From a virus: a DNA stretch of 30,904 nt. Under the pieces are notes generated by a model, which was not told the origin of the DNA, made no database searches, and was given only the letters and a program-made list of their open reading frames with translations. Shown one piece after another: positions 18,138 through 29,530 of this stretch (position 1 is the first letter of the stretch; each line of letters starts with the position of its first letter). Both the position numbers and the translations under genes were made by a program. The stretch covers positions 1-30,904 of the IMG/VR virus record IMGVR_UViG_3300027747_000199; one strand, given 5' to 3'.

Positions 18138-18442
18138 CACTTCACCTTCTGCTCAAGAATGACAATCCGCTCTCGGTTTAGGTGGATCAGTTCCCGGTTC
18201 TCACCAATCTGCTTTTCTAGATCTTGGCGCAACTTCTCCCGTGCCAATTCTGCGCCGCTGTTGGCGGCTTGCTTGTTGTCGCTGGTGACCACAAGGCTGA
18301 TCTTGGCGTTTAGGACCGTCACATCATGCGTGATCTTGTCCAACGCGCTCATCAGGTAGACAACGCAGGTAAACAAAATCGGCAAGACGGCAAACGCGGT
18401 CTTCTCAATCAACTGCGACTTGGCTTCCAACTTTTCAGTCAT
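18137..18442 (-). CDS. Membrane-anchored coiled-coil protein, 101 residues
   Basis: One membrane helix at about 15-33 (FAVLPILFTCVVYLMSA) is followed by a long charged helix to the C-terminus ending with heptads (LHLNRERIVILEQKVK region). This is the layout of phage membrane proteins such as holin partners or i-spanin-like proteins, but no spanin motif or lipobox gene is seen inside it. It lies between the metallophosphoesterase (ATGA overlap) and the 52-residue membrane protein. A lysis role is inferred from position. Confidence 0.72.
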   Translation of the reverse strand: MTEKLEAKSQLIEKTAFAVLPILFTCVVYLMSALDKITHDVTVLNAKISLVVTSDNKQAANSGAELAREKLRQDLEKQIGENRELIHLNRERIVILEQKVK

Positions 18443-19392
18443 AGTTTGCTCACATCAATAAGTTGACCACGGAAGTCAATGATACCCTCAGCGTGTTTGC
18501 TGACTAGTTCCGGCCAGAGTGGCTTGCTGTCTTTCATCGTTATGACCGCGAACCCGCTGCGCCAGTTGACCGGGCCGTCTTCAAGATAGTCTATGAATTG
18601 TGGCCCATCAATCTCAGCAAGCGTCCCAGTATCAACGCCCCATCGAGTCCCATTATAGTCCCCAAACGGTGTGACTTTGAGGCTGTGTAAATGGCCGGTG
18701 ATGGTTGTGACGCCAGAATTGACGGTGTTGTTGTGGGTGGCGTGAACGCCGCCCTTGTAGCGGTGCTTGACCACTACGTTGTCTGACAGCCAGCAAGACC
18801 AGCAGGGATGCCATTTGGGAAAATGATCTTTAAGCGCCGTGCCGCCGACCCCTTCAAACTGCGGCGCTGCTTCGGAGAGGCGCGTCTCGAAACGCGAGTC
18901 ATGGTTACCTAACGGCCAGATTAGTTGGGTGTGGTGGCGAGCCTTTTCGCAGGCGTCTTCAATCTCTTTAAGCGCCGCTTGGCAAGCGTCGAGTTCCTGC
19001 TTCACGTTTGGAACCGCGCTCCAATTTATTTTGGCGTGTCTGCTGATTGAACTTCCATCAAAAATATCGCCGTTGGCAATCACAACGTGCGGTTTAAGTT
19101 CGTTTATCGCCCACAACAAGCCCTTGAAGGCAGTTGTTCTGATCCCAGGCCAAAAGTGAGCGTCAGAGAAAATGATAGCAATGCCATCAGTCAGGCCAGC
19201 TTCGTGTCTGGCTTTCTGAATGTGGATTGGTTTGCCAGTTAGTAAGTTTAGGCTCAACTTACTTTCTAAAGAACGACGCCGAGAATGAACGCGCCGCTCA
19301 GAAATTCCCGTCAGTCTGGCAACTTTGACAGGTGATTTATGCTCTTCCCATAGCCGCAAGAACTCTTCGTCGCTTATTTTTTGTGGCTTCAT
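18439..19392 (-). CDS. Calcineurin-like metallophosphoesterase with N-terminal helix-turn-helix
   Basis: A 317-residue protein. Residues about 5-45 (EEFLRLWEEHKSPVKVARLT then GISERRVHSRRRSLE) look like a winged or simple helix-turn-helix. The phosphoesterase core shows DxH at SDAHF (Asp77, His79), GDxxD at NGDIFD (108-112), GNHD (162-165) and GHLH (233-236), the full two-metal site. Substrate cannot be told: nucleic-acid ends, cyclic nucleotides and protein phosphates are all used by the family. The ribosome-binding site AGGATGAAG precedes ATG 19392. It sits between tail and lysis genes in the leftward late operon, an unusual place for a nucleic-acid enzyme. Confidence 0.88.
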   Translation of the reverse strand: MKPQKISDEEFLRLWEEHKSPVKVARLTGISERRVHSRRRSLESKLSLNLLTGKPIHIQKARHEAGLTDGIAIIFSDAHFWPGIRTTAFKGLLWAINELKPHVVIANGDIFDGSSISRHAKINWSAVPNVKQELDACQAALKEIEDACEKARHHTQLIWPLGNHDSRFETRLSEAAPQFEGVGGTALKDHFPKWHPCWSCWLSDNVVVKHRYKGGVHATHNNTVNSGVTTITGHLHSLKVTPFGDYNGTRWGVDTGTLAEIDGPQFIDYLEDGPVNWRSGFAVITMKDSKPLWPELVSKHAEGIIDFRGQLIDVSKL

Positions 19393-19753: not shown

Positions 19754-19945
19754 TTAATGACCTCTAGTCAGTATGGTCAGCAACAGCAGGATGATTGACC
19801 CGCAGCCGGTGACCAAGATCTGCTCTAGGCGTTTGATCCGGGCGTGGATACCCCGCGTTTCTTTTTCAATACCTTCGTACCGAATCGCGCAGATGTCAAC
19901 GTGGGCATCAATTTTGTGTTCAACTTCAGATAATGTAACCATCAT
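19754..19945 (-). CDS. Small XhlA-like coiled-coil/membrane protein, 63 residues
   Basis: The peptide starts MMVTLSEVEHKIDAHVDICA, has a coiled-coil IEKETRGIHARIKRLEQI, then a C-terminal membrane helix CGSIILLLLTILT. This layout (helix, then one C-terminal membrane segment) matches phage haemolysin XhlA-type proteins, which work with holins. The start at 19945 overlaps the upstream stop (ATGA), so it is coupled to the 632-residue ejection-type protein. It could help lysis or membrane anchoring; the call is from topology and family resemblance. Confidence 0.7.
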   Translation of the reverse strand: MMVTLSEVEHKIDAHVDICAIRYEGIEKETRGIHARIKRLEQILVTGCGSIILLLLTILTRGH

Positions 19946-21840
19946 GGAGCCAGTTGGTTTTGGTTTTCGCGGTCCGCGACAAGCGCGTTGATAACTGCGG
20001 GAGTACGGATAATTTTTGACCCCATTTTACCGGCGGTCTGAAACGGTGCGGCTATTTTTTTACCCTTGGCCTCACGCTTGATCGCTTTATCTAATGCTTT
20101 AGCCGCCGCTGCGGGGTCTAACATTTCTGTAGCTAGTTCGATAGCAAGTTTCTGATCTAGTTTGCCTTGCAGCCGCCGCATAATATCGTTAGCAACAGTA
20201 GCTACGCGGGATATAAGGTTAGGCGCGCGTATTTGTCCGATAGCTTCAGTACCTAACAAATTAACGTCAGGGCCTGCCCCTCGCGCAAAACGCGCTTGTT
20301 GCTCTGCTAATTTAGCGCGGGCAAGATCGTCTCGCACCGCTTCAAGAGCAGCAATTTGTTGCGGCGTAAGAATCTGGCGTAAACTTTCAAATCGTGACTG
20401 CCCTGTCGCGCGTTTAATTGTAGCTGGCGCGTTTTCTAACGCTTCCGCGTACCCTGCGGCCCTAAGCGCCGCTGTATCTTGACCAAGTGCCGGTTTTAAT
20501 TTTCCTTCAAGGAACTGACCGACTTGCATTTGGTTGATCGGTTCGCTTTGTTTTTGAAAAGTTTCCCTTGCTACTTTATATTCTGGCGCTTTATTTTCCA
20601 TCCATCCAACAAGTTGTTTTTGTAGATTTACAACTTGTTTTTTCTCAGTAGACGCAAGAGCGGTATCGCCTGTTTTTGACATCATTTTGTCAAGAGACAA
20701 TTTAACGCCGTGTAAAAATTCAATTGGGTTACTTCTAAACGTAATACCTTTTGCTTCTGCTAATTTAGTAGCGTCTGGTATAGCGTCCTTAAAATATGGG
20801 TTATTTGTTAATTGTGCTAACGCAAGGTCTGCTTGCGTTTGTACTGCAAACGCTGCTGGATAGTTAGTTGCCGCCGTACCACTTCTAAGTGCTTCCGCGC
20901 GAGCAAGTGCTGCCTCATCTTGACCAACAAATTGAATTTGTCCTAGTTGGGCTGATTTTTGTTGAGCTTCACGTTCAAAATACGGCGTCGGTAAAGTTTT
21001 TTTAGCCGATTCACCCATTGCAGAAAAACGAGTGGCTCCTACAGGTGCAGCGGCTTGCGCTGCTGTAGGCATACTTCCCGGAACAATTTGAACATTAGGA
21101 TCTAGTAGCGCGTTTAGAATTTGCGGCGCGCGCCCTTCTGTTGCAGTCATGTACGCAACTGATTTTGGGTCGAGCGCGTTGTATATTGCGCCCGTCGCTT
21201 TACCAGCCAACTTAAAAGGCGCTTCTATTATCGGAGCCACTACGCGAGAAGGGTTAATTTTTTCGCCTACCGCAGCAGCGGGTGCAAACACATCACCGGC
21301 GTTAGCAATACGACCCGCAGTAGTGGCAGATACGCCCGCTTTTCTAGCCGCGCCGCCAGCAGCGGTAGTTATACCCTTAACAGTTCCCGCGCCGCCCGTA
21401 AGCAACGAAGACAGATCACCTGCCGCGCCTACTGGGTCTTCAGCAACTGTTCGTTTAATTGCGTCATAACTGCCGTAGCGGTCTTTAATAACGCCGCCTA
21501 CCGCGCTGGCTTTGTCTGACACTCGTTGCGCTGCTTTTGGATCCGCGCCAAATACTTGGTCAACTTTGTCTATTGTGGCTACAACATTTTTTGGTAAGGA
21601 ATTTCTTAACGCGCCCGCGCCAACATCTAAAATGTCACCAATTGTTGTGAGCGGGTTAAGTACAGCTTGAACAATCCCACCTACAAACGCGCCCGCGCTT
21701 TTGGGTAGGTTTTTCCCCGCTTCAATAGGCACTTCAGCCAAAGAGTAACTACGGCGCGCGATTGGTATTTCGCTAGTAATAGCATACTGCGCGAACGGGT
21801 TTTGTTGCGGCGCGTATTGGGCAAACGGATTGTCAGCCAT
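19942..21840 (-). CDS. Large ejection-type internal virion protein, 632 residues
   Basis: An Ala/Gly/Lys-rich, mostly helical 632-residue protein with no clear catalytic motif. It opens MADNPFAQYAPQQNPFAQYA, a doubled NPFAQYA motif that I recognise at the N-terminus of phage internal virion/ejection proteins. The 130-170 region is Gly/Ala rich (GGAGTVKGITTAAGGAARKA). Size and place, third of three ejection-type proteins after the tail genes, match P22 gp16 or gp20 or T7 internal proteins, which enter the host with the DNA. No lytic transglycosylase domain is seen. The start follows directly on the upstream stop (TAA then ATG). Confidence 0.65.
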   Translation of the reverse strand: MADNPFAQYAPQQNPFAQYAITSEIPIARRSYSLAEVPIEAGKNLPKSAGAFVGGIVQAVLNPLTTIGDILDVGAGALRNSLPKNVVATIDKVDQVFGADPKAAQRVSDKASAVGGVIKDRYGSYDAIKRTVAEDPVGAAGDLSSLLTGGAGTVKGITTAAGGAARKAGVSATTAGRIANAGDVFAPAAAVGEKINPSRVVAPIIEAPFKLAGKATGAIYNALDPKSVAYMTATEGRAPQILNALLDPNVQIVPGSMPTAAQAAAPVGATRFSAMGESAKKTLPTPYFEREAQQKSAQLGQIQFVGQDEAALARAEALRSGTAATNYPAAFAVQTQADLALAQLTNNPYFKDAIPDATKLAEAKGITFRSNPIEFLHGVKLSLDKMMSKTGDTALASTEKKQVVNLQKQLVGWMENKAPEYKVARETFQKQSEPINQMQVGQFLEGKLKPALGQDTAALRAAGYAEALENAPATIKRATGQSRFESLRQILTPQQIAALEAVRDDLARAKLAEQQARFARGAGPDVNLLGTEAIGQIRAPNLISRVATVANDIMRRLQGKLDQKLAIELATEMLDPAAAAKALDKAIKREAKGKKIAAPFQTAGKMGSKIIRTPAVINALVADRENQNQLAP

Positions 21841-23310
21841 TTATTTTTTTCCACCTAAAATTTTAGCCGCCGCGCCAGCACCAAAAATTTCATCAAACTG
21901 TTGCGCGCTACCTTTACCAGCTTTTAACGCTTCAATCGCGGCGGCTGGTATAGCAGCCGCAGTCGCCGCTGCGGTTCGCTCTGGCAACGTAATTTTTGGA
22001 TCGTAAGGAAATTTAACGCCGCGTGTTTCAGCGCCGGTAACTTCTTGATTGTGGCGTTCCACTCTATTGCGTACAGAATCACCAAAAGCATCAAGCACAC
22101 GCGGAAGCGCGCTCGGGTCTGTACCAAGACTTCCCAAAGCAGCCTGAAGCGCATCTTGCTGTTGCGCTGTAGGTTGGGAATCCAACTTTTTCAAGTTGTC
22201 CATAATCCCAAAGAATAGCCTAGACCGCAGTTCAGCAGCGTCAGCTACACCTTTGGTGTCAATTTTGGTCCCCAAACGAGTGTTTAAGAAACTTGCGGCT
22301 TGCTGTAAAGATTCGCCGCCAGGACCCATAAATCCTTTGGCCCCGCCAACTAACTTTTTGGCTTTGTCAATATTATCAAGCACTCCCGCCGCGTCTCTTA
22401 ATTTTTCATAGTTTTCCCGTGTTGCTTTCATAAACTCTTGCTGCGCGGTTACACTAGCGGGCGCGTAAGCGTTTACGTTTGTAATTGTGTTTGACGCCGG
22501 TTGATGGGTCGTCAAAGTTGCAATACGTTGATTGTATTCTTGAATTAACGGGTCTTTAGGATTTTTGGCTATTAAAGCTGCCCGTTCAGATTGCAGCCGC
22601 GAAAGATCAGACGGGCCAGCAGGAGCGGCGGTTTTAGATATTACTGGCACGTTAGTCATTGTTTGACCATACCCGGACAGTAATGGATTTCCTTGAACTG
22701 GTGTAATGTTAGCGCCCGTATCCACTCGTTCTATTTTTGGCATTGCATCTACAAGTGCTTTGCGCGCTTTATCCGAACCAGTAACCAAATTTTTTAAAAA
22801 ATCTGGGACTTCCGCATCAGACTTTGGGAGTTCATTTATTTCTGTTTGGCCTATCAATCCGCGCCTAAACAAAGATTGCGCCGCGCCCTGTACTTGTGCT
22901 AAAGAAACTGGTGTTCCTTGTGCGGACGCTGCCGCCAACGGTACAAACGCGCCGGAAATATTTTCTAAAATATCTCCTCGGCGTTTTAATTCTGCGGAGT
23001 CGATTTCCGATTGAGTTTTTTTAGCTGTAAGCCCAGCGTTTTCTGCTTCACGTTGCGCTTTAAGAAATTCTAAGCCAGTTTTGCCAAACGGAAGCGCCGT
23101 CGAAACGTCTAGTTTAAACCCCGGCTGGCTGGCTTGTCGGTAAAAAGCATTTTGTTGTTCTTCCGCACGTTGAGCTGCAGACAACTGATACTGCGCCAGC
23201 GCGTTCTGATTCTGAGCGCTTTGGATTTGCGAAAACTGCGCCAGACGGTTAATTTGGTCGGGAAATTCAATTGCTGCGGGGGCGCGGAGAAGGTTAGTAT
23301 TCAGCGGCAT
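21841..23310 (-). CDS. Internal virion/ejection-type protein, 489 residues
   Basis: A Gln/Ala-rich protein beginning MPLNTNLLRAPAAIEFPDQI, then a long helical stretch (about 20-120, NRLAQFSQIQSAQNQNALAQ) with many Gln and Ala. This is the composition of P22 gp20/gp16-like injection proteins. The middle part has SDLSRLQSERAALIAKNPKD and no enzyme motif. It lies between the other two ejection-type genes, one base after the upstream gene's stop and with its stop joined to the next gene's ATG. Assignment rests on composition, size and position. Confidence 0.65.
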   Translation of the reverse strand: MPLNTNLLRAPAAIEFPDQINRLAQFSQIQSAQNQNALAQYQLSAAQRAEEQQNAFYRQASQPGFKLDVSTALPFGKTGLEFLKAQREAENAGLTAKKTQSEIDSAELKRRGDILENISGAFVPLAAASAQGTPVSLAQVQGAAQSLFRRGLIGQTEINELPKSDAEVPDFLKNLVTGSDKARKALVDAMPKIERVDTGANITPVQGNPLLSGYGQTMTNVPVISKTAAPAGPSDLSRLQSERAALIAKNPKDPLIQEYNQRIATLTTHQPASNTITNVNAYAPASVTAQQEFMKATRENYEKLRDAAGVLDNIDKAKKLVGGAKGFMGPGGESLQQAASFLNTRLGTKIDTKGVADAAELRSRLFFGIMDNLKKLDSQPTAQQQDALQAALGSLGTDPSALPRVLDAFGDSVRNRVERHNQEVTGAETRGVKFPYDPKITLPERTAAATAAAIPAAAIEALKAGKGSAQQFDEIFGAGAAAKILGGKK

Positions 23311-23311
23311 A

Positions 23312-24388
23312 TCAAGGCCTCCGTAATGCGGCGATGAGAGCGTTGTCGCTTTCGTTTCTCAAGTATTGACTTGCTCCGCGAGCCAAAGCGTCGGTTGCGT
23401 TTAAATAAGAAGATGCTTTGATGTTGCCAGTATTGGCTAACGTCTCAGCTTGGTTTGTACCGTATGCGCCAGTAGTCGCAGCCAAATTATTGGTAGCGCC
23501 TTGACCATACCCCGCCAACGTCTGTAGCGGTCCAAGTCTCATGTTGTAATCGGTGTTATACCGATTGTAGGCGTTTTGGTACTCTTGCGACGCTAGTCCT
23601 TGCGCGAACCGTTGTGTTGCTTTCAAAGTGCCGCCAGACAGCAACCCACCACGAGCAGCAGCAGCGTTGTTTAGACCTTTGATGCCTTCAGACAACCGGA
23701 AAGCATAGCCGGGGTCTGTCTGAAATTTGTCAGCCGAAAAGGGCGTAAACTGCATTTCAGGCGATTGCAACTTGTTAAGCGCGGTTATACCCGCCTGGCG
23801 CCACGGTTCTTGGAGTGCTTTTTGTTCTTGGAAAATTCTGTAGTTTGAATCCGCTATTGATTGATTGGCGTTAGACATCGCCCGAGCACCGGCAATAGAC
23901 CCAAGCGCACCCAACGCAGAACTACCCGCAAGAAGCGCGGTGCTAGGTGAAATGCCGGATGGAAGGAAAGACATTAGTCCTGTCGCTTCTGCGCCTACGG
24001 GAAGCCCTGCGCTGCCCGTTAAGGGGAAAGCCGACGACGCCACATCGCCACCTAATGTCATACCTCCCGCGCCGGGAGCAAGATAATTTGTTGGGATTGT
24101 GCTAAGTGCTTCGCCACCCGCCAACGCGTTGGTTCCGGTAAGACTCCCGCTAGTCAACGCGGAATCAATTGCGGCTTGCCCGCCAGCAACCTCTGCCGTC
24201 GCTACAGATGCGCCAGTAGCAGGATTAAAGAACGCTCCAATCTCAGGAGCAAAATAGTAACCACCCGCCAAAAGTGCAGGAAGAGTCCAACCGCCGGGAA
24301 TGTTTTCTCGAACTTGATCGTCTATTTTGGCTAACGGGTCGCTAATAAAATCAAACGCGCCGCCGGTTAATTTGCTAAACCAACCCAT
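23312..24388 (-). CDS. DNA transfer/ejection protein, P22 gp7-like, 358 residues
   Basis: The N-terminal third is hydrophobic and Gly/Ala-rich (MGWFSKLTGGAFDFISDPLA, then TLPALLAGGYYFAPEIGAFF), consistent with membrane contact. The C-terminal half has EPWRQAGITALNKL, DPGYAFRLSEGIKGLNNAAA and LLSGGTLKATQRFAQGLASQ, the YAFRLSEG...AAARGGLLSGG...YQNAYNRY pattern of P22 gp7-like DNA transfer proteins that I recognise with fair confidence. Its start overlaps the upstream gene by one base (TAATG). It would be packed in the virion and injected with the DNA. Confidence 0.8.
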   Translation of the reverse strand: MGWFSKLTGGAFDFISDPLAKIDDQVRENIPGGWTLPALLAGGYYFAPEIGAFFNPATGASVATAEVAGGQAAIDSALTSGSLTGTNALAGGEALSTIPTNYLAPGAGGMTLGGDVASSAFPLTGSAGLPVGAEATGLMSFLPSGISPSTALLAGSSALGALGSIAGARAMSNANQSIADSNYRIFQEQKALQEPWRQAGITALNKLQSPEMQFTPFSADKFQTDPGYAFRLSEGIKGLNNAAAARGGLLSGGTLKATQRFAQGLASQEYQNAYNRYNTDYNMRLGPLQTLAGYGQGATNNLAATTGAYGTNQAETLANTGNIKASSYLNATDALARGASQYLRNESDNALIAALRRP

Positions 24389-24723
24389 TATGTTATCTCC
24401 CGCCCGTTAGACCGGATGTTGATCGCCGATGCCGTCCCTGCGATGGTGCTGATGAACCCGCCTGGGCCTAACGCAGCGCCGGTAATTTCCGGGAACGTAT
24501 ACGTCTCTGACGGCTGGAGTGTCTTGGTTTTGACGATCAAGTTCTGATTGCCAGCCGAGTCTGCAACCGTGACCAAGTTAACGCTGATTGTCGCCGCTGA
24601 CCCGCTAAAGTTGGTCGCGGTGAACTTGTCAATAAGCGTGGTCACACCGTTGGCGGTGTACTGAGTCGTTTGGCTAGACTCGGCCAGCTTCGCAGGAATC
24701 AAGACTCTTACGGTTACACTCAT
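24388..24723 (-). CDS. Small virion-type beta protein, 111 residues
   Basis: The peptide begins MSVTVRVLIPAKLAESSQTT and continues with alternating Thr/Ser/Val strands (FTATNFSGSAATISVNLVTV, LQPSETYTFPE), typical of a beta-sandwich. Related small proteins occur between tail-fibre and injection genes in environmental phages. No enzyme motif or membrane segment. ATG overlaps the upstream stop (ATGA, 24720-24723). Likely a structural or tail accessory protein. Confidence 0.7.
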   Translation of the reverse strand: MSVTVRVLIPAKLAESSQTTQYTANGVTTLIDKFTATNFSGSAATISVNLVTVADSAGNQNLIVKTKTLQPSETYTFPEITGAALGPGGFISTIAGTASAINIRSNGREIT

Positions 24724-25085
24724 GGTTGCGTCGCCTTGTAAGCTAAGATCTGCGCGTCATAGCTATCGCCAATCTGCGCCTTTAGAACGTCCCGAATCCT
24801 GATGGTTTTGCTTTGCTCTGCCCTTTCGGTTCTGATCAACGAACGCAGACGGTCGCGGTACTGGTAATCGCTAATCGCTTGGGCTTCGTCATCCGACAAA
24901 GAATGCGGCAGTTCGTCAATCTTGACGCCCTTAAATGCCACCCAGTCCTGCGGCCAGTCGCCCGAAGGAAATGCAAGTAGCATAGCAGAATAGTTGTCAA
25001 TGTTCACCTGATACGAGTAGATTTCAAGCTCTCGAAAGTAGGCGTTCATGACTGTGGAAGCTAGTTTTTCGTTGTCAGTAATCAT
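24720..25085 (-). CDS. Protein of unknown function, 121 residues, near tail genes
   Basis: The peptide starts MITDNEKLASTVMNAYFREL; the centre has LAFPSGDWPQDWVAFKGVKI, and the C-terminal half (about 60-121) is a charged helix (AISDYQYRDRLRSLIRTERA) that could form a coiled coil. Position directly after a tail-tip-like propeller gene (ATGA overlap) suggests a chaperone or assembly protein for it, similar in placement to fibre-assembly proteins, but no known motif supports that. Function open. Confidence 0.65.
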   Translation of the reverse strand: MITDNEKLASTVMNAYFRELEIYSYQVNIDNYSAMLLAFPSGDWPQDWVAFKGVKIDELPHSLSDDEAQAISDYQYRDRLRSLIRTERAEQSKTIRIRDVLKAQIGDSYDAQILAYKATQP

Positions 25086-26134
25086 CTTGATTGGTTAGAG
25101 AAAGAGACACAATTGGGGATACTTGCGACGAACGCTGGGTCTGCGTACTGCGTACCAAAACCTGCATTCCAAGGCCACACACTAATGGGACCGGCGCTTT
25201 TAGCGATCTCCGTTCCCGTGCTTGACCAATTTACTGATAAAGCCGTGCCGGAAGTTGGGCTAAAAATTCTGGTCCCAAAACCAGAACTCCAAGGATACAC
25301 AAAAATAGGAAGTCCAGAACCAGTTCCAGTTGCTAAATACGTCCCGTCTAAGTTGAAATCTATAGAGTTTTTTATGAACCCGTCAGATACTGGATTGGCA
25401 TATTTTGAACCAAACCCAGAGCTACTAACTGCGTAAGCAGCAATGTATGGGTTGGTTCCAGTACCAACTGCCAAATCGTTTGTGACTTTGTTAAACGAAA
25501 TGGTTTGCCGTATGGCGTTGCCGGTATACGCAGTTGCAGGGTTGGCATATCGAGTGCCAAACCCAGACGAGGATGACCAAGGATACAAAGCAACATACGG
25601 GCTTGCGCTAAAGTTAAACGCCACCAACGTATTGTCGCCGTTCAGAGAAATTCCGTAAGTCGCCCCGCTGGTCGTGATGGAACTACCGTTAGAATATTTG
25701 GTTCCAAACCCGGAACTCCACGCCCATGCCTGTGGATATGATGTAGCCGGTTGGTTAAACGTAAGGATTGCGTCTATTGCGTTTGTCCAAGTAAACCCTA
25801 CTGGCGTACCTGTTGGGCTTAAAAGACTAGACGGGTCTGCGTAACGTGTCCCGTATCCAGAGGCAGACCAAGGCCACGCATAGATGTACGGAGACGTAGA
25901 AAACGATGCCGAAATTACGGAGTTGTCCCGTACAAACGAAATTTCTTGTACGGTGACAGATGTTATAGCCGATGGGTTGCTGTAGACCGTTCCAAAACCA
26001 GTTGTAGAGTCCCAAGGAAAAACGCCGACAGTTCTTCCTCCGGTTGCCGATCCACAATATGCAATGTATTCAGATGGCGTTGGTGGCGGTATAGCTCCGT
26101 AACCATAAATAAGAGCACCGAAAAAGCCACTCAT
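25082..26134 (-). CDS. Seven-bladed beta-propeller tail protein (putative receptor-binding)
   Basis: A 350-residue protein with seven copies of a 40-49-residue unit: motif GFGT or variant at 46-49, 93-96, 142-145, 191-194, 240-243 (GFGS), 285-288 and 325-328, each preceded by a Trp/Tyr-Pro-Trp-Ser-like strand and usually followed by a Y-x-NP or Y-x-DP turn. Between motifs lies a strand pair resembling ISF..D..LA.GT...YI. Seven regular blades with the final half-blade completed by the N-terminal strand (YIAYCG) fit a closed WD40-like propeller. Start ATG 26134 overlaps the fibre gene's stop (ATGA). A receptor-binding or tail-tip role is inferred from its place downstream of the fibre gene. Confidence 0.75.
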   Translation of the reverse strand: MSGFFGALIYGYGAIPPPTPSEYIAYCGSATGGRTVGVFPWDSTTGFGTVYSNPSAITSVTVQEISFVRDNSVISASFSTSPYIYAWPWSASGYGTRYADPSSLLSPTGTPVGFTWTNAIDAILTFNQPATSYPQAWAWSSGFGTKYSNGSSITTSGATYGISLNGDNTLVAFNFSASPYVALYPWSSSSGFGTRYANPATAYTGNAIRQTISFNKVTNDLAVGTGTNPYIAAYAVSSSGFGSKYANPVSDGFIKNSIDFNLDGTYLATGTGSGLPIFVYPWSSGFGTRIFSPTSGTALSVNWSSTGTEIAKSAGPISVWPWNAGFGTQYADPAFVASIPNCVSFSNQSR

Positions 26135-27249
26135 GTCACACCCAAACCGAAGACGTACCAAGTGTTTGTTGCGACCTTAATCATTGTGGCTACGCCGTTA
26201 GACGCAACAGATCGGTCGCCAGTAGATGTTGAGTTAGCCAGTTTGAGCGTAACGCCAGATCCGGCTTGAATAATTAACGCGGTCGCGTTACTCACCACGC
26301 TGATAACCGTACCAATTTCAAACGCTACGCTGCTGTTGGGCGGCACGGTGACGTTGCCGGTTAGATACAAATGCTTGGCGCTATCTGACAAAACCAACGT
26401 GCCGCTGGTGTTGCCAGACTGCGGCATGGTACGGAAACCAAAGCCATAAGGGTTGCCGCTACTGTCGTTGACCGTGGAGCCAGTTGCCAGCCCCGTGATG
26501 GTCTTATTGGTTAGCGTTTGTGTGCCAGTCAACGTCACAACCGTGCTATCAATACTGACCGTGCCAGACGTTGTTATCGGCCCGCCCGTTAGACCCGTGC
26601 CGGTATTAACTTGTACGACGCTACCACCAGCACCGTTACTTGCAGCGGTAAGCTGGCCTTGAGCATTAACGGTGATGTTGGCAGAAGTGTAAGTACCAGC
26701 GGCAACCGTAGTGTTGGCTATGTAGATGGTTCCGGTTGTTGTCACCGGCCCACCGGCCAGTCCGGTCCCAGTATCGACTTGCGTAACACTTCCAGCCGAC
26801 CCGTTGCTGGCGGCGGTTAACTGCCCTTGGGCGTTGACCGTAATATTGGCTGCTGTGTAGTTACCAGGCGTGACTGCGGTGTTTGCTATCGCAATCGTTC
26901 CGGTCTTGACAATCGGGCCACCAGTTAGCCCTGTGCCTGTGTTGACTTGAATGACGCCGCTTTCTGGTGCTGGCTGACCAACTGGCCCCAAAGACAGATC
27001 ATTAAGTTGCGCGTAGATGTCTTGGATTGCCGGTTGACCAACGGACAAGTCGTTGATGCTTGGGCTAGATGGTTGCGGCAACGGGACGTAGTTTAGATAT
27101 TCAACTGCCGTATCGCTGGCCCCAGATCCGGTCAGCGTAAACAGATTTAAAAAAAACCTGTACCACTCACGCGACATCAATCCGGTGCGCGAATCAATAA
27201 AATCAACCCGAGGCGCGGGTATCTGGGTGATGTTATTGATGACCGGCAT
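26131..27249 (-). CDS. Tail fibre protein with 56-residue tandem repeats
   Basis: A 372-residue fibre. The N-terminus MPVINNITQIPAPRVDFIDS followed by TGLMSREWYRFFLNLF is the adaptor-type start common in phage tail fibres. Residues 99-154 and 155-210 are two 56-residue repeats (QVNTGTGLTGGP, GTIxIANTxV, YTxANITVNAQGQLTAASNG) and 211-254 is a partial third ending in a different way. The C-terminal part (about 255-372) is Gly/Ser/Thr-rich beta structure with ASNGVATMIKVATNTWYVFG at the end, a recurrent fibre-tip signature. Likely a trimeric beta-rich fibre for host recognition. One base of its stop/start is shared with the upstream gp10-like gene (TAATG). Confidence 0.82.
   Translation of the reverse strand: MPVINNITQIPAPRVDFIDSRTGLMSREWYRFFLNLFTLTGSGASDTAVEYLNYVPLPQPSSPSINDLSVGQPAIQDIYAQLNDLSLGPVGQPAPESGVIQVNTGTGLTGGPIVKTGTIAIANTAVTPGNYTAANITVNAQGQLTAASNGSAGSVTQVDTGTGLAGGPVTTTGTIYIANTTVAAGTYTSANITVNAQGQLTAASNGAGGSVVQVNTGTGLTGGPITTSGTVSIDSTVVTLTGTQTLTNKTITGLATGSTVNDSSGNPYGFGFRTMPQSGNTSGTLVLSDSAKHLYLTGNVTVPPNSSVAFEIGTVISVVSNATALIIQAGSGVTLKLANSTSTGDRSVASNGVATMIKVATNTWYVFGLGVT
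26620..26955 (-). repeat. Two 168-bp coding tandem repeats in the tail-fibre gene
   Basis: Residues 99-154 (26788-26955) and 155-210 (26620-26787) are units of exactly 56 residues; 211 onward begins a third that diverges after about 35 residues. NITVNAQGQLTAASNG is identical in both full units although many codons differ at third positions, so the repeat is old and the protein sequence has been kept by selection. Confidence 0.8.
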
Positions 27250-28814
27250 TAAGAACTTGTTCCGCTTGCGTGCAGTTCTGCCCCCATGATGGCAATCTTC
27301 ACGGGGTCTGTGCCAGATAACTCATACACTCGATCACGCAGTTTAAGCGTCATACCCAAACGCCGCCAGAACACGCGCTGCTGGTAGACGCCAATTTTGC
27401 CAAGCGTTGCCCAATGCTCATTAGACCAAGTGTGACCGCCATCATCTGACCAGCGCAACATCACTTGTGGATCAAACCCAATCGTGAACGAATCGCCAGA
27501 AACAGCCAGCAAATAATCGCCGCTTTCTGTGATTAGAAACAAGCCGTCTTCGGTAGTCAGAAAAGACGGGTCAGTCCCCGCGCTGTTATTGATACCGACG
27601 CCGCTTTGACAATCTAGTTGTAGGCTATGGTGCGCCGTGCGGGTTAAGTTATTCTGACCAGTCGGCAGCGCCCGCCAAGAGCGTAGCCATTTCTGCGGGC
27701 TACCGTTGTCGGCATAAACGTCTAGGTCAAAAGCGTACAAATTGCCATTAGCAAAATCGCCAACAACAATCTCGCTATTAAACGCCATCTGGCAGTTGCT
27801 GCGATGGCGCAAGAACAGACCGTTAGAAAACGCCGCTCGTTCATGCCACGCTTGTGTAGATACATCGTACACCCAAGTTGCGTTAGCCGATGGGAATGTC
27901 AGAACGTAGAAGGCGTGACCCTCTTGCTGGTAGGTGTACGCAATTGCATCGCTAATATTTCCGTACTGGGCAATCGCGTATTCAATTGCGTGCGTACTAA
28001 CCCGCTGGCCGGTGTAGCCATTGGCGCGGTAGACAATACCCTGCCCGCGAGCGTCAGCGCCCAACCAGAACAGACCGTTGTCTAGTTTGGCTACTGAGAA
28101 CGTCGCCGCACAACCAATCTCGTTATACGCACCTTGGATGCGTTGAAATGGTTGGTCTGTATCTGCTACGTTGTACCAAACTTCAACCGAATTGGTTCCA
28201 AACAACCATAGCTCGCTATGGTCAACGATCATGCTAACCAGACCGTCTGATGATCCCTCGGCGGTCCCTACGTTTGTTAAATCAAATACCAGCGGGTAGA
28301 CATACGCAACACCGTTTGTTGTTGGGTCAACTGTGATTGAGGTTACCCAATAAAACTGTTGCGACCCTGGTTCTAGATAAACAAAAAAAGTGTTGAAATA
28401 ATAAACGATTGAAGCGCCAGCAAAATCAGTTGAAGTGATTTTTTGAAAGTTGCCTGTCAGCGAGTTGTAGGTGTAACCGTCTGGATTACACGCAACAAAC
28501 AACACAGCGCCGTTGTCAGCCATGCTGACCGGCCCCGTGCCGGATACGTCGCCCAATTTTGTAGCAACGTAGCTGCTAGTGATCTTGTAGAGTTCAGACC
28601 CGCTGACAACGTAGCCAATGCCGTTAAACGTCCACAGCCCACGAATGGGACCAGTACCAACGGTGGCTAGTTTTGTTAGCCCCGGCGCTCGATTTAGAAA
28701 TGCTGGTTCTTTGCCGCCTTCGGGAATAATCTCAGGAAAGAGATTGACCATTCTGTTGTCGGCAGCATTGATGCTCCGAGCAACGTATGCCGACCCCAGA
28801 ATCGGCGTTTTCAT
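27249..28814 (-). CDS. P22 gp10-like tail/packaged-DNA stabilisation protein
   Basis: A 521-residue protein starting MKTPILGSAYVARSINAADN with RMVNLFPEIIPEGG (21-34), which is the recognised opening of phage packaged-DNA stabilisation proteins related to P22 gp10. The rest is beta-rich with repeated Tyr/Gly/Asp segments. It would form the hexameric neck ring below the portal and gp4-like adaptor and carry the tail tip. Gene order coat, two small proteins, gp4-like, gp10-like, fibre fits. ATG 28814 shares a base with the upstream gene's stop. Confidence 0.82.
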   Translation of the reverse strand: MKTPILGSAYVARSINAADNRMVNLFPEIIPEGGKEPAFLNRAPGLTKLATVGTGPIRGLWTFNGIGYVVSGSELYKITSSYVATKLGDVSGTGPVSMADNGAVLFVACNPDGYTYNSLTGNFQKITSTDFAGASIVYYFNTFFVYLEPGSQQFYWVTSITVDPTTNGVAYVYPLVFDLTNVGTAEGSSDGLVSMIVDHSELWLFGTNSVEVWYNVADTDQPFQRIQGAYNEIGCAATFSVAKLDNGLFWLGADARGQGIVYRANGYTGQRVSTHAIEYAIAQYGNISDAIAYTYQQEGHAFYVLTFPSANATWVYDVSTQAWHERAAFSNGLFLRHRSNCQMAFNSEIVVGDFANGNLYAFDLDVYADNGSPQKWLRSWRALPTGQNNLTRTAHHSLQLDCQSGVGINNSAGTDPSFLTTEDGLFLITESGDYLLAVSGDSFTIGFDPQVMLRWSDDGGHTWSNEHWATLGKIGVYQQRVFWRRLGMTLKLRDRVYELSGTDPVKIAIMGAELHASGTSS

Positions 28815-29530
28815 TAGTAATTACCGGCGTAGACGTTGAACCGCTGGCGAGTCGCAACCAGCGAGTAAGGCATCGCCATTACATCGTCAGGATTGTTGAT
28901 GCGCTTGAGGTTGCGCTTGCTGGTCATGGCAATACGCTTGACCTGTTCTGATGGTTCAACACCAAACTCAGGCGCGATCTCCATCGCCAGATTGTAAGTG
29001 AACGCCCGCAGGTAACCTGGCGGGTAAGCCATGATTGTTGCCAGCGTAGCTGGCTTGTCCAATTCTTCAACGCTGATGAAATGCCACTCCAAAACCCGCG
29101 TGGGCTTGGGGTAGATCGTCATCGTAATGTTGGGGTACTCCATGTTGATCCACATCACTTGTGGATACGTGGAGGTCACCGTTTTGACCGCAATGCCGTC
29201 GTACTGCTGCTGGTTGATGAACTTGATGCCATACGACACGTTTGTTGACGGGTCACGGAAGTACGTTGAATCTTCCAACAAGACTGGACGGTTGCCAACA
29301 AAGTCGCCAGAAGGCCCAAGCGTCTGAGTAATCAGACCGGGCGTCCAAAGATATGTCTGGTCTTGAGTGTTGTAGGTTGACAGTTTTTCCGTGTTCCAAC
29401 TGTCAATCATCTGATTCATTGCAGTCAATGAATCTTGCATTACCGAGGCCGAGGTTGTTTCACCTTCTGCTAGGACACCTAACAAACGCAAGGCGCGGTT
29501 GATCTGCTCACCAGCGGAATATGTTGCCAT
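28814..29530 (-). CDS. P22 gp4-like tail accessory/neck protein
   Basis: A 238-residue protein opening MATYSAGEQINRALRLLGVL then AEGETTSASVMQDSLTAMNQ and MIDSWNTEKL (41-50), the N-terminal helices typical of P22 gp4-like head-completion proteins (also seen in T7 tail-tubular A relatives). It plugs the portal after packaging and attaches the gp10-like ring. P22 gp4 itself is shorter (166 residues); longer versions are common. Start ATG 29530 follows a GAGG ribosome-binding site, itself just after the hairpin at 29547-29562. Confidence 0.82.
   Translation of the reverse strand: MATYSAGEQINRALRLLGVLAEGETTSASVMQDSLTAMNQMIDSWNTEKLSTYNTQDQTYLWTPGLITQTLGPSGDFVGNRPVLLEDSTYFRDPSTNVSYGIKFINQQQYDGIAVKTVTSTYPQVMWINMEYPNITMTIYPKPTRVLEWHFISVEELDKPATLATIMAYPPGYLRAFTYNLAMEIAPEFGVEPSEQVKRIAMTSKRNLKRINNPDDVMAMPYSLVATRQRFNVYAGNY

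Follow-up and report, generated by a model that had tools for sequence, protein, structure and literature searches.

Seven-bladed beta-propellers with velcro closure have been described in podovirus tails, in the T7 nozzle gp12 and the P22 gp10 hub, where the propeller is part of the central channel protein (PMC6702177). Phage adhesins are known in other forms: the gp38 tip adhesins on the long tail fibres of T2/S16-like phages are separate receptor-binding proteins encoded near the fibre gene, and they combine a constant scaffold with variable segments, as does the propeller that we propose here as an adhesin (PMC12892980). Some receptor-binding proteins (RBPs) are paired with a downstream chaperone, as in gp26/gp27 of Alteromonas phage V22, where no protein of the region varies more than the RBP (PMC7289586), and in gp24/gp25 of Pam3, where the chaperone gp25 is composed of a beta-sandwich and a helical domain (PMC9608196). 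The WD40 superfamily includes 'highly repetitive' propellers (PMC9218822). Propellers, phage adhesins and adhesin-chaperone pairs are already known kinds; what is undescribed, as far as these searches reach, is a propeller lineage associated with phages that has a constant helical partner without a family name and that diversifies on one face.

The propeller studied here lies in a 30.9 kb record of a freshwater virus (the window, meaning the whole stretch of 30,904 nucleotides that was analysed), which carries P22-type genes including those for a portal, a gp4-like adaptor, a gp10-like hub and a gp20-like ejection protein. The structural genes suggest, as the best reading, a P22-type podovirus. 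The genes around the propeller are as follows:

28814-29530, minus strand: P22 gp4-like head-tail adaptor (PHROG 637, E 3e-09).

27249-28814, minus strand: P22 gp10-type hub, head closure Hc3 (PHROG 578, E 1.7e-127).

26131-27249, minus strand: tail-fibre-like protein of 372 aa, directly upstream of the propeller (PHROG tail fiber, E 3e-05).

25082-26134, minus strand: seven-bladed WD40-like propeller protein of 350 aa (ORF, AlphaFold2 and blade counts).

24720-25085, minus strand: partner of 121 aa with a YQVNIDNY motif, a predicted helical hairpin (H4-36, H65-105).

24388-24723, minus strand: protein of 111 aa after the partner, with no assigned function.

23312-24388, minus strand: gp20-like DNA-ejection protein (PHROG 598, E 1.7e-28).

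After the gp20-like gene stand two large proteins (21841-23310 and 19942-21840) without convincing family match, which by position are perhaps further ejection proteins, and a metallophosphoesterase gene (18439-19392; PF00149, PHROG 221) lies between ejection-type and lysis-type genes. The PHROG annotation of the neighbours upholds the place given to the propeller gene in a preliminary description of this DNA, between a fibre gene and ejection genes; it belongs to the tail cluster and adjoins the fibre gene. Whereas the T7 and P22 propellers are built into the channel protein, here that protein is another gene (27249-28814): PHROG 578 matches this adjacent gene and gave no match to the window propeller, and the propeller was accordingly ruled out as the hub or nozzle. 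The PHROG 578 hub was found in 15 of 35 records of propeller contigs, and a contractile tail sheath marker was absent from the propeller contigs tested. The T2/S16-like phages that carry gp38 differ from the window system in being myoviruses. The gp38 fold is polyglycine-rich, unlike a propeller, and we know of no YQ[VI]NIDNY partner for gp38.

The propeller ORF is read on the minus strand, from an ATG at 26134 to a stop at 25082, while on the plus strand across 25082-26134 many stops close the frame. With the strand so assigned, the ORF and the repeats noticed at the outset are a real observation and are confirmed: seven GFGT-type motifs start at residues 46, 93, 142, 191, 240, 285 and 325, spaced 40-49 residues apart. 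The protein is not a product of chance, since relatives at 30-99% identity occur in many contigs and their blade number is fixed at seven. Its N-terminus is short, hydrophobic and disordered (MSGFFGALIYGYG), and the propeller extends from about residue 22 to residue 345.

AlphaFold2, supplied with an alignment of 17 homologues, modelled the 350 aa as one propeller (pLDDT 85.1, pTM 0.86; residues 1-14 alone under 50), and the strand sets of the model correspond to seven blades, such that the seven repeats are predicted as blades of a WD40-like beta-propeller. At the N-terminus, blade 1 has two strands only, b (23-29) and c (36-42); residues 339-345 at the C-terminal end contribute strand a and complete the blade (the 'velcro'). 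The ring is thus predicted to be closed by a blade to which both chain ends contribute, as judged by this strand order and by fold matches to seven-bladed propellers that are closed. Foldseek against the PDB returned seven-bladed WD40/YVTN propellers and designed seven-bladed proteins at E about 1e-10, several of the top matches being 6-phosphogluconolactonase-type YVTN propellers; against viral models it returned 'WD40/YVTN repeat-like' proteins (uncultured Caudovirales) and ORF76 of Pseudomonas phage POR1. The second-ranked match was to a propeller protein of a phage whose annotation includes a coagulation factor 5/8 C domain. These matches point to the generic WD40/YVTN fold and convey no function. 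The closed seven-bladed propeller with velcro that had been predicted is borne out by the strand order, by Foldseek and by the blade counts of the family (seven in 104 of 108 members, as detailed below).

Relatives of the propeller are common in IMG/VR, with at least 577 confirmed stretches in one scan; two scans yielded 27 and 80 loci, the 80 being chosen from those at least 577 stretches. Because only two GTDB MAG contigs turned up, the family is considered phage-associated, and the two do not allow a host to be assigned. A blade HMM run over distinct members counted exactly seven blades in 104 of the 108 members of 300-400 aa, while among ten members of 600-760 aa it counted fourteen blades in seven and thirteen in one, the other two being partly resolved (five blades detected). 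The long forms with regular motif spacing have one wider gap near the middle (51-54 rather than 47), which fits two propellers in tandem (two times seven). The consensus blade is approximately GFGTKYANPATLPTGxGxGVAFSPDGSAIAVAHxxSPYISVYPWSS. In some members the blades are 80-94% identical to each other (up to 94% in L219, among four blades), which indicates that amplification or homogenisation has been recent in some lineages; the blades of the window propeller are far less alike. The propellers of L017 and L021 are nearly identical, most of their differences falling within roughly the final 45 residues, a pattern that looks like intragenic recombination in the last blade.

The family shares with the WD40 superfamily (PMC9218822) the blade layout, the number of seven blades and the near-identical blades of some members, as in recent amplification, but it has its own signature (PWSSGFGTKYANP) and is found almost only in phage contigs. 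No Pfam model matched the window propeller at E <= 0.1, and a PHROGs scan of it alone gave nothing significant. Three of 17 members reached E 0.068 at best on PF00400 (WD40), short of its curated cut-off, and the scores of individual family members against WD40-type models of Pfam are weak (6.6e-07 at best). Sequence searches of the PDB with the propeller yielded generic propeller proteins or chance matches only, and a search by motif and for phage WD40 adhesins in open-licence PMC papers found no description of the family. The same repeat class is present in two deposited proteins, A0A6J5SDD4 (UniProt, 694 aa, uncultured Caudovirales), named 'WD40/YVTN repeat-like', and MW202701.1 (Podoviridae sp. 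ctYwJ313), named 'wD40 repeat protein'; identity to such deposited relatives is 34-38%. In MW202701.1 the propeller comes after a gp10-like stabilisation protein and is followed by a YQINIDNY partner, as in the window; the deposited relatives are longer, at about 700 aa (MW202701.1 has two sets of seven blades), and they are annotated by name only, without described function. The 'unusual sequence class' of the preliminary description is therefore an already deposited WD40-like lineage, although its statement that no function has been described agrees with what we found.

The start of the partner gene, which is absent from the preliminary description, overlaps the propeller stop by 4 bases. 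Its family comprises proteins of about 75-140 aa with the motif YQ[VI]NIDNY; Y25, N28, Y32, E90 and K93 are invariant in the alignment used for folding, and the model is an all-helical hairpin (pLDDT 97.4) for which the PDB contains no fold match at E <= 0.001. A known tail assembly chaperone was ruled out, as none of 44 partner members matched PF16778 (Phage_tail_APC); separate PF16778 proteins stand near the cassette in L100 and L224. When partner members were scanned one by one, the Pfam and PHROG matches were weak, none better than E 5e-05, and fell in many different families; they were taken as chance. No named family and no solved structure was found to correspond to the partner.

Pairing of the two genes is near-obligate. 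Of 97 propeller loci in which this could be tested, with redundant contigs counted, 95 have a partner after the propeller, and in the two exceptions it is found in an overlapping frame call (L087) or just upstream (L104). The reverse search, from the partner, showed that 72 of 77 distinct partner genes adjoin an HMM-detected propeller; the remaining five comprise a start-codon overlap artefact (L166), a partner at a contig end (L156), two partners with a divergent propeller-like protein carrying an fn3 domain upstream (L224 and L232), and L163, the only partner locus without a propeller, on a myovirus-like contig with a sheath-like protein. Many of these partner and propeller loci were found with queries from one lineage, and so the sample is weighted towards it. 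Propeller and partner are considered to form a cassette because the partner search leads back to the propeller in nearly every case. Given the YQVNIDNY-family protein of L163 (3992-4342), the role of the partner family may be wider than propellers.

Several loci depart from the usual arrangement. In L101 (7857-10826) the whole propeller-partner pair is duplicated in tandem, with a 122-aa relative of the partner at window 24720-25085 after each propeller. Both L101 propellers have an N-terminal 'GGxI...GxWTLxQ' module. The module of one of them shares 75% identity with its counterpart in a concanavalin-A-like lectin protein of phage DSL-LC04; the small protein after that lectin-type gene does not belong to the partner family and matches an ALTTAQ repeat model. 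The order is reversed in L148 (3992-5488), with the partner before the propeller gene. In L224 (3514-4974) and L232 (3558-4976), divergent propeller-like proteins with a GxWS-type N-terminal module and fn3 are followed by a partner, and L224 also contains two genes for LamG lectin-like proteins whose N-terminus is likewise short and hydrophobic.

The V22 and Pam3 pairs share their gene order with the cassette, namely an adhesin and then a small helper, and by analogy with them the partner would most simply be a client-specific chaperone. Their clients are fibres, unlike the propeller, and their chaperones are other proteins than the partner.

When blades have four antiparallel strands, one face of the propeller carries the b-c and d-a loops and the opposite face the a-b and c-d turns. 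Variation of the propeller is concentrated in the loop sets of one face, b-c and d-a. Comparison of sister blades within 29 highly repetitive members gave a mean mismatch of 0.44 for b-c and 0.41 for d-a, against 0.26 for a-b and 0.05 for c-d, and comparison of 17 orthologues of the window propeller gave 0.62 and 0.67 against 0.32 and 0.25, respectively. For the sister blades, the true register ranks second among 47 circular shifts, one step from the best, and the position-shuffle p is 0.0006, which is only a guide because positions are non-independent, sequences are related, and loops are generally more variable than strands. Loops vary in many WD40 proteins; more telling than the p value is that one face differs from the other in sister blades and orthologues alike.

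The propeller is also among the fastest-evolving genes of its tail cluster. Compared with many relatives, the gp4-like protein is 79-97% identical, the hub 76-91% and the partner 80-91%, whereas the propeller is only 44-53% identical, a strong divergence relative to neighbouring virion genes. In these comparisons the fibre falls to 48-56%; at 48-69% in most loci, it diverges at a pace similar to that of the propeller; the gp20-like protein is variable as well (37-92%). A second phage group shows a different pattern, with low identity to the window in the hub (36-37%) and the gp4-like protein (25-26%) and higher identity in the fibre (64-68%), the partner (62-68%) and the propeller (47-51%), as expected if the last three were exchanged as a set; the 111-aa protein, 86-95% identical in near relatives, was not detected in this group. 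Fibre, propeller and partner thus appear to move together between distant phages, although slower evolution of these three genes in that lineage may also account for the pattern.

We consider it rather probable that the propeller is a fibre-associated adhesin with a dedicated assembly partner in P22-type podoviruses; its role, its location and its chaperoning are putative. The receptor- or glycan-binding role put forward earlier is better motivated by the one-face hypervariability, the rapid divergence and the apparent cassette exchange, all of which suggest it; no known carbohydrate-binding motif was identified in the window propeller, and the 'tail tip' location first proposed is tentative. 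In the mechanism that we propose, the propeller would be a single closed seven-bladed WD40-like virion adhesin, anchored to the neighbouring tail fibre (or to the tail) through the short, disordered and hydrophobic tag at its N-terminus. The fold would be maintained by the core and by a bottom face that is conserved, and the b-c and d-a loops on the variable top would meet the host surface and bind glycan or protein there; with a constant scaffold and changing loop residues, specificity could shift while the fold is kept. The partner would serve as a propeller-specific assembly chaperone, or else as a permanent docking subunit, and fibre, propeller and partner would travel between phages as a cassette.

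Other propellers act as scaffolds or as enzymes, and WD40 proteins are often intracellular interaction platforms. An alternative that we regard as unlikely is that the propeller is a structural virion subunit, such as a fibre collar or tail decoration, which docks virion proteins and whose variable face meets the variable fibre and not the host. Propellers are common docking scaffolds and the T7 nozzle gp12 holds one in a structural role (PMC6702177), but the hub or nozzle equivalent is here a separate gene (27249-28814). Likewise, the upstream fibre diverges at a similar pace and appears to move with the propeller, yet a single constant partner facing every blade would give less reason for sister blades to vary, and the fn3 domain of the L224 and L232 propellers and the N-terminal module common with a lectin protein fit an adhesin better. 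It seems very improbable that the propeller is absent from the virion and works within the host cell or at its surface, for instance by binding a host factor, with an incidental place in the tail cluster: the frequent intracellular role of WD40 proteins speaks for this, and against it stand the constant position in the late structural cluster with overlapping start and stop codons, the N-terminal module common with a lectin-type tail-cluster protein, and a divergence pattern that resembles the fibre. Marginally less probable still is a tail enzyme, for example a lactonase-like or polysaccharide-degrading domain, as suggested by the 6-phosphogluconolactonase-type propellers among the top PDB fold matches, since Gly, Trp, Pro, Tyr, Asn and Ser make up most of the invariant positions, where charged residues are very rare (K146, D220), and no Pfam enzyme family matched significantly.

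Beyond the adhesin reading itself, we tentatively propose, with a little less than even confidence, an undescribed adhesin system of environmental podoviruses, in which fibre-mounted propellers diversify on one face by repeat amplification and loop change, are served by a propeller-specific YQ[VI]NIDNY helical chaperone, and are exchanged with fibre and chaperone as a cassette. Receptor-binding proteins decide which bacteria a phage infects, and in uncultured freshwater phages they are mostly unrecognised; the cassette is widespread in IMG/VR (at least 577 confirmed stretches) and has a clear sequence signature for both genes. As the propeller scaffold separates the fold from the variable surface, its role is directly testable. 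If the partner is indeed a propeller-specific chaperone, it would be of a type unlike the tail fibre chaperones compared here.
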